From Ignavibacteriota bacterium (GTDB taxonomy: Bacteria > Bacteroidota > Ignavibacteria > UBA10030), in contig PMML01000032.1 of NCBI GenBank assembly GCA_003162695.1, positions 1 to 38,616 on the forward strand: a DNA stretch of 38,616 nucleotides, given 5' to 3'. Every line of letters starts with the position of its first letter. The stretch's first letter is position 1. Shown in pieces: positions 38,158-38,616 of this stretch. The notes beneath the pieces are model-generated. The model was given only the letters and a program-made list of their open reading frames with translations, was not told the DNA's origin and did not search any database. A program made the position numbers and the translations under genes.

Positions 38158-38178
38158 TCTTTAATAAGAATGAAATTC

Positions 38179-38300
38179 GGAGAGCTGGCAGAGCGGTCGC
38201 CGCATACTTTCCGAGGGAATCCCTGCGGGACGGGATGTCCCGTTGGGAGAATCGGCGGTCTTATCTTGACGGCTTTACCTGTGTTCAAATTCTAACAGTG
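38179..38300 (+). pseudogene. Degenerate or interrupted tRNA-Ser fragment
   Basis: The first 21 bases (38179-38199) are identical to the start of the tRNA-Ser at 38558. A roughly 53-base insert with hairpins (AGGGA/TCCCT; CGGGAC/GTCCCG at 38226-38242) follows, then CGGCGGTCTT (38253-38262), which also matches the tRNA. The anticodon arm that should follow is altered, and a T-loop-like TTCAAAT (38284-38290) appears later, without a 3' arm complementary to GGAGAGC. A functional tRNA is therefore unlikely. Confidence 0.6.
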
Positions 38301-38307
38301 GAAGCAG

Positions 38308-38550
38308 ATGCCATTCGTCTATATCTTAAAAAGTATAAAAGATGGCAGATATTACTATGGAAGCACGAAGGATCTTATCCGGCGTTTAAAAGCACATAAC
38401 GCGGGCAAGGTGAAATCGACGAAAAGCAGAAGACCGCTTGTTTTACATTACTTTGAAGAGTATGAGGTTATGAATGGCGCGAGGAAGCGAGAGATCTCTT
38501 TCAAGAAGATAGGCGGTTATAACTGGTTGAAGAAGGAAGGAATTATTTAG
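38308..38550 (+). CDS. GIY-YIG nuclease family protein
   Basis: An 80-residue protein with the GIY-YIG fold of UvrC-N/YhbQ-like nucleases: the motif appears as FVYILKSIKDGRYYYGSTKDLIRRLKAHNAGKVKSTKSRRPL, with Tyr-(Ile/Val) and Tyr-Tyr-Gly in place of GIY and YIG, the conserved Arg (LIRRL) and the HNxGKVxSTK segment; KKEG lies near the end. It starts at ATG 38308 with GGAAG just upstream and stops seven bases before the tRNA-Ser. Small proteins of this family are common in several copies in Bacteroidota-like genomes. The 27-base direct repeats on both sides suggest a mobile or target-duplicating origin. Confidence 0.85.
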   Translation: MPFVYILKSIKDGRYYYGSTKDLIRRLKAHNAGKVKSTKSRRPLVLHYFEEYEVMNGARKREISFKKIGGYNWLKKEGII

Positions 38551-38557
38551 AAAATTC

Positions 38558-38616
38558 GGAGAGCTGGCAGAGCGGTCGAATGCGGCGGTCTTGAAAACCG
38601 TTGTAGCCTTATGGCT
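38558..38616 (+). tRNA. tRNA-Ser (UGA), cut by the window end
   Basis: GGAGAGCTGGCAGAGCGGTCG at the 5' end is the acceptor and D arm of a bacterial tRNA-Ser. The anticodon arm is GCGGT-CTTGAAA-ACCGT, with anticodon TGA in a seven-base loop. The long variable arm begins TGTAGCC...GGCT, as expected for a class II tRNA. The T arm and 3' end lie beyond the window. Confidence 0.92.

Follow-up and report, generated by a model that had tools for sequence, protein, structure and literature searches.

Small GIY-YIG nuclease genes beside split and rebuilt tRNA genes: a probable homing-type element of bacterial chromosomes

A small GIY-YIG gene lying between two copies of the beginning of a tRNA-Ser gene raises the question of how it came to be there, and whether it belongs to an element that enters tRNA genes and leaves them intact. 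Small GIY-YIG open reading frames (ORFs) are common in bacterial genomes, are annotated by domain only, and have hitherto spread without a described mechanism. The gene in question sits at the right end of the window, the whole stretch of 38,616 nucleotides analysed here, in an Ignavibacteriota bacterium. A preliminary description proposed that an element had arrived at a tRNA gene, or had copied one, and that the tRNA remained functional. This proposal is supported by recurrent linkage to tRNA genes, by partial tRNA repeats and by empty sites. The analysis also goes beyond it, with hairpin inserts, two mirror layouts, isotype specificity of the ORF clades, tandem arrays, and a gap in the assembly that conceals where the right tRNA ends.

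The tRNA-Ser locus at the end of the window

A repeat search of the window confirms an exact 27-base direct repeat on the two sides of the gene, with the left copy at 38173–38199 and the right copy at 38552–38578, both on the plus strand and spaced 379 bp apart. Each copy is made of AAATTC, six bases of upstream flank, followed by bases 1–21 of tRNA-Ser(TGA). The chance of a 27-base repeat within 1 kb is negligible, and length together with recurrence rules out a chance repeat as the explanation of the two copies. Between them, at 38308–38550 on the plus strand, the ORF list and a Pfam match (GIY-YIG, E=3.3e-14) place a single-domain nuclease gene of 80 amino acids.

The left copy does not end at tRNA base 21. 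The plus-strand remnant at 38179–38262 comprises the 5' half of the tRNA-Ser(TGA) gene up to the anticodon loop, with its D-loop broken by two hairpins that stand back to back at 38209–38219 and 38220–38248. In the DNA fold, this double hairpin (38209–38248, plus strand) reads TTCCGAGGGAA and then TCCC(TGCGGGACGGGATGTCCCGTT)GGGA, the second containing a nested hairpin; its folding z-score is -3.55, and none of 200 shuffles was as good. It is of the same type as the inserts found in relatives, for example TTCCAAAGGAATCCCGTTGGGA at L016, and a search of the window's own genome for further copies of this hairpin block found none. After the hairpins the remnant resumes as CGGCGGTCTT, the next tRNA segment, and ends in the anticodon loop at 38262. 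By itself the match of CGGCGGTCTT to the tRNA is weak (63 of 1000 shuffles were as good), and its end point is backed by a homologous array elsewhere, in which a tRNA-Ser(TGA) fragment stops at the same GGTCTT (L211).

The right copy had been described as an apparently normal tRNA. This holds for the 59 nt of its 5' end that lie within the window (38558–38616, plus strand), and its completeness is inferred rather than demonstrated. The right edge of the window is not a contig end; it is an assembly gap of 53 Ns (about 1638–1690 of L034) that splits the presumed intact tRNA-Ser(TGA). ARAGORN calls no tRNA inside the window, and the Rfam tRNA model gives only a truncated match of 20.7 bits, below the gathering score. 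When the 59 nt before the gap are joined to the 3' end after it, ARAGORN calls tRNA-Ser(TGA), but the two sides of the gap overlap with a mismatch (GTAGCC and GCAGCC), which means that a further tRNA copy or unit could be hidden there. Since an N gap falls within the repeat at the window's end, a chance repeat or an assembly artefact at a scaffold gap has to be considered. It keeps next to no credence, being already refuted by recurrence: the left copy, the ORF and the right repeat all lie on one contiguous stretch, and the same architecture is found in a single-contig genome (L211) and at another copy in the host itself.

That other copy is the only further match to the ORF protein in the host genome (E 4.3e-6), and it too is at a tRNA gene. 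At L038 5022–5520 (G000:C45), a tRNA-Val(TAC) remnant with its anticodon loop replaced by a hairpin is followed by the ORF and then by an intact tRNA-Val(TAC), with one more hairpin-marked fragment downstream. With this example the case for the earlier reading is much better than the window could make it by itself.

Recurrence beside tRNA genes and two mirror layouts

The preliminary description left it to be seen whether small GIY-YIG genes repeatedly adjoin tRNA genes with direct repeats. They do, with partial tRNA repeats, in related and distant genomes alike. ORF relatives were collected irrespective of any tRNA nearby. Among genomes of the same family and order, a tRNA lies within 300 bp in 22 of 30 loci, always on the strand of the ORF. 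A scan of one genome per species across many phyla, including Ignavibacteriota, Bacteroidota, Patescibacteria lineages, Cloacimonadota, Omnitrophota, Planctomycetota and Chloroflexota, gave 59 of 80 loci at the same distance and the same strand in 59 of 59; a few contigs, such as L003 and L039, are common to these two sets. A fresh sample of the window's phylum found the family in about half of the genomes (78 of 148), with tRNA linkage in 26 of 28 loci, again all on the same strand. As a baseline, a same-strand tRNA is equally near in about 1.4% of positions lying over 1 kb away from the ORFs. The outcome that would have counted against the proposal, flanks of other copies without tRNA association, was thus not seen.

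About a quarter of the relatives have no tRNA called nearby, and some of these are flanked by remnants only. An Rfam search of the relatives without a called tRNA revealed no general alternative target, the single case being an RNase P RNA gene at L074 (2482–3120), where the ORF relative begins 75 bp past that gene instead of a tRNA. From this neighbour, other non-coding RNA genes may also serve as targets. Two records of Hadarchaeota (L059 and L115) carry ORF relatives, also with no tRNA called nearby.

The flanking sequence follows a consistent pattern. On the far side of the ORF, 71 of 79 testable loci show a damaged copy of that same tRNA, scoring higher than the best of 20 shuffles. A repeat common to the two ORF flanks is present in 62 of 100 loci versus 2 of 126 shifted controls. 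Two mirror layouts are observed. Remnants in first position retain the 5' end of the tRNA (35 of 35 loci), and most of those that follow an intact tRNA retain its 3' end (24 of 26). In other words, the outer half of the tRNA survives in the remnant and the half facing the ORF is lost, as predicted by insertion into a tRNA gene together with the supply of a replacement half. The layout alignments used cheap gap extension, which makes weak inner matches untrustworthy; stricter alignments yield the same rule. Remnants range from about 12 nt to the whole gene, with break points in different loops.

The protein is a single domain of about 80 amino acids without any DNA-binding module. The GIY-YIG catalytic positions are conserved, with Tyr, Tyr-x-Gly, Arg and Glu invariant among 28 relatives. 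Compared with solved structures, the family profile matches the UPF0213 proteins best (1ywl, E=2.3e-14; 1zg2, E=1.7e-13) and then the structure-specific nuclease SLX1; the homing endonuclease family phrog_314 matches only weakly. Two ORFs at the same site in sister species differ with a dN of 0.13 and a dS of 1.46, which indicates purifying selection on the protein. Although its resolution is poor, the ORF tree groups sequences according to tRNA isotype (33 changes versus 53.2 with shuffled labels, and none of 200 shuffles as low), with recurring groups for Gly, Glu(TTC), Cys, Leu(CAA), Gln and Ser. Only distant relatives turned up in phage and plasmid records, with no close one in phage, so no obvious carrier was found there.

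The match to UPF0213 (YazA/YhbQ) invites an explanation in which passive tandem duplication of tRNA genes trapped a housekeeping gene of this type, and the identical tandem units described below show that unequal crossing-over does occur. The family here, unlike UPF0213, is multi-copy, bound to tRNA genes and arranged in tandem arrays. Trapping would have to account for recurrence, invariably same-strand, at many isotypes and across many phyla, for a tree that tracks isotype, and for one tRNA locus in one genus entered independently by two ORF clades; it is accordingly held to be very improbable.

Empty sites, filled sites and tandem arrays

Evidence for insertion comes from a tRNA-Ser(CGA)–tRNA-Ser(GGA) locus in one genus of the window's family. 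It is empty in G007 and G043, which have one tRNA-Ser(GGA) and no fragment. In G024 it is filled in the remnant-first layout: the native upstream flank leads into a remnant, in which TGAGCCTAAGGCTCATGCGCCTCTGGCGCA stands between GTGGGTTC and GAATCC, followed by the ORF, a complete tRNA and the native downstream flank. An ORF of a clade other than that in G024 fills the same tRNA-Ser(GGA) in G041 and G042, in the intact-first layout. Here the full tRNA is followed by the ORF and then by CCGTGGGTTC, hairpins and GAATCCCACTCTCTCCGC, with the native downstream flank next in G041; in G042 the unit is present twice, and the second ORF is truncated. Two different ORF clades have thus inserted independently at one tRNA-Ser locus. 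The native upstream flank stands before one tRNA copy and the native downstream flank after the other, which establishes that the element entered the tRNA gene and restored the tRNA. At the T-loop junction no tRNA base has been lost, and no other target duplication is seen. A separate feature of this locus in G024 is that an extra segment of about 300 bp, containing a short open frame, separates tRNA-Ser(CGA) from the element (about 560–880 of L164); this segment is absent from the empty relatives.

A second pair of alleles, at tRNA-Cys, is empty in G034 and filled in G039. Syntenic relatives with a single tRNA and no fragment, which the preliminary description had named as a check, therefore exist at these two loci, and an upstream fragment persisting without the ORF at an empty site, which would have spoken against it, was not encountered. 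No empty site was found for the window's own locus, because there is no same-genus genome for comparison; the genome with the nearest ORF relative, G008, has only the ORF and the tRNA in common with it.

The single-contig genome G169 (L211) holds three identical 323-bp units followed by an intact tRNA-Ser(TGA), and the tRNA fragment of each unit ends at GGTCTT, exactly like that of the window. A longer array of about eight 364-bp units, each with an ORF and a tRNA 3' fragment with hairpins, occupies L210 629–3524 (G095:C34); no intact tRNA was called in the 4.3 kb examined there.

An altogether different function for these arrangements, in which the protein is a toxin that cleaves tRNA and the adjoining pseudo-tRNA is a decoy antitoxin, would suit the tracking of isotype by ORF clades and the sharing of a tRNA 5' or 3' half by the remnants. 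The phage GIY-YIG enzyme SegB is toxic when overexpressed (PMC13096335). A decoy would call for a conserved RNA, and remnants that vary from a dozen nucleotides to a whole gene and break in different loops offer none; moreover, the empty and filled sites are those of an insertion at the level of DNA. Little plausibility is left to a toxin of this kind.

Proposed mechanism, known relatives and the role of the hairpins

The likely explanation is a cellular single-domain GIY-YIG element of the homing type that targets tRNA loops, a unit of about 350 bp made of the nuclease gene and part of a tRNA gene. Cleavage is inferred, and neither cleavage nor mobility has been measured. The nuclease would cut its chosen tRNA gene in an element-free genome within the stretch encoding a loop, such as TTC^GAA in the T-loop or TCTT^GAAA in the anticodon loop. 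Repair would then be copied from the element-bearing locus, with the two tRNA halves as homology arms, and would leave the ORF between a complete tRNA, joined from a native half and an element-borne half, and the displaced remnant of the other half. Both mirror layouts are expected because either tRNA copy can act as either arm. Hairpins placed in the remnant's loops may remove the target and lower recombination with the intact copy, a protective role that, like the cutting of an empty allele and the copying by repair, is inferred. Repeated rounds or unequal crossing-over could produce the tandem arrays.

Several features sit less easily with this homing-type element. At filled sites the whole presumed target persists in the intact tRNA even though the remnant is interrupted, which leaves the self-immunity of the element unexplained; the tandem arrays suggest that immunity of the donor is incomplete. 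In addition, within a single ORF clade the interruption falls variously in the D, anticodon or T loop. One fixed cut site per clade is not supported, and this variation counts against the explanation. So do the relatives, about a quarter, with no tRNA called nearby, the absence of any DNA-binding module from the ORF and, at the window's own locus, the want of an empty-site relative and a right tRNA that runs into the gap.

Several known systems can be set beside the element. By analogy, phage SegB would be its closest known relative in mode of action and the closest tested precedent. SegB cleaves tRNA genes internally, preferring the motif RAWTSGAAC, and brings about tandem amplification of the tRNA together with the endonuclease gene (PMC13096335). 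In our own reading of the sequence, GATTCGAAC, the bottom strand of the T-loop GTTCGAATC, appears to fit this motif. As with SegB of the T-even phages, a free-standing GIY-YIG gene lies next to tRNA genes (PMC13096335, PMC2988022). Unlike SegB, a phage protein at tRNA clusters with no isotype preference, the element is chromosomal in many phyla and has isotype-tracking clades; its single domain of about 80 amino acids is closer to UPF0213/SLX1, without full-length homology to SegB and its DNA-binding modules; and it inserts into the tRNA gene, leaving a split, hairpin-marked remnant.

The closest architectural precedent is provided by the mobile ORFs of fungal mitochondria, which carry gene tails, as in atp6 of Allomyces and atp6, atp9, cox2 and nad3 of Glomus (PMC3630166). 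There, too, an endonuclease ORF has inserted into a gene, brings a substitute for one end of it and displaces the native end downstream (PMC3630166). Those elements use protein genes and mostly LAGLIDADG enzymes, whereas here the targets are bacterial tRNA genes, replacement occurs at both 5' and 3' ends, and the remnants carry hairpins. Islands inserted by integrases at tRNA 3' ends likewise take a tRNA gene as target, restore it and leave a fragment at the far end; the present element differs in having no tyrosine or serine integrase, only one GIY-YIG ORF in about 350 bp, and in also using tRNA 5' ends and anticodon or T loops. With free-standing homing endonuclease genes it shares the catalytic fold with its conserved residues, as well as filled and empty alleles among relatives, at tRNA-Ser(GGA) and tRNA-Cys. 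It is unlike an endonuclease encoded by a group I intron, as Rfam gives no group I intron match around the window ORF, which lies outside the intact tRNA. No description of a chromosomal tRNA-invading GIY-YIG element was found in the literature searched, which leaves most subscription journals outside its coverage.

These ORFs appear here as a widespread parasite of tRNA genes whose host survives because the split gene is rebuilt. If confirmed, they would be a source of compact nucleases with sequence specificity, sorted by the isotype of the tRNA, and would count as the chromosomal equivalent of phage SegB. They would also account for many tRNA fragments and tandem arrays and give a lead on the movement of dispersed double-hairpin repeats. 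The two natural sets of empty and filled alleles render the homing-type element testable.

The hairpins are the part of the system for which more than one role can be argued. They occur in 39 of 53 remnants, versus 10.3 expected from shuffles and 8 of 97 control stretches, and many are two palindromes back to back in a D, anticodon or T loop from which no tRNA base has been lost. Double hairpins are concentrated near the ORFs, with 43 in 112 kb versus 13 in 380 kb. They are also dispersed without an ORF, in up to 9 exact-pattern copies per genome (the reversed control pattern gave none). These ORF-less copies lie in T-arm fragments (L125, L136, L145 and L147) and at or near the centre of other inverted repeats (at 1501 in L131, L144 and L151, and at 1501 and 2387 in L129), including perfect palindromes with arms of at least 14 bp. 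Insertion usually falls at YYY^RRR in the pattern-based set, with sites counted on both strands.

RAYTs and mitochondrial double-hairpin elements provide a comparison for these double hairpins. REP palindromes and double-hairpin elements are likewise short and dispersed, and the palindromes here are found also in the loops of inverted repeats. They differ in being concentrated in tRNA remnants beside a GIY-YIG gene, the sole ORF of a unit in which no transposase is seen; the single-strand (HUH/Y1) transposase partner of REP/RAYT systems is absent. The hairpins may themselves be the true mobile units, REP-like and entering inverted-repeat loops, with the GIY-YIG protein as mobilising enzyme and the tRNA units as composites. 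The dispersed copies, their position between YYY and RRR or in T-arm fragments, the enrichment near ORFs and the resemblance of the family profile to SLX1 would all be in keeping with this. Double hairpins, however, occur without an ORF match in some genomes (G025), many genomes with the ORF lack this hairpin type, certain remnants have no clean double hairpin, and at L211 the hairpins are in the D-arm and the insertion junction in the anticodon loop. Mobile hairpins as the whole explanation are on this evidence unlikely.

An element of the homing endonuclease kind remains the preferred reading, with a real chance that its hairpin part makes it something more. Tentatively, and with less confidence than doubt, a new bacterial mobile system can be envisaged: a minimal structure-guided GIY-YIG nuclease that recognises the stem-loops of tRNA genes and carries dispersed, non-autonomous double hairpins, as well as the unit that rebuilds the tRNA, into hairpin loops, with separate lineages for different isotypes. 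The hairpins may protect the remnant, may make it more stable against recombination, or may be mobile in their own right. In G025, a genome without a detected ORF relative, five 140-bp tandem repeats at L122 1501–2090 (G025:C9) each consist of a T-arm-like sequence split by a double hairpin, and they stand upstream of tRNA-Val and tRNA-Gly.
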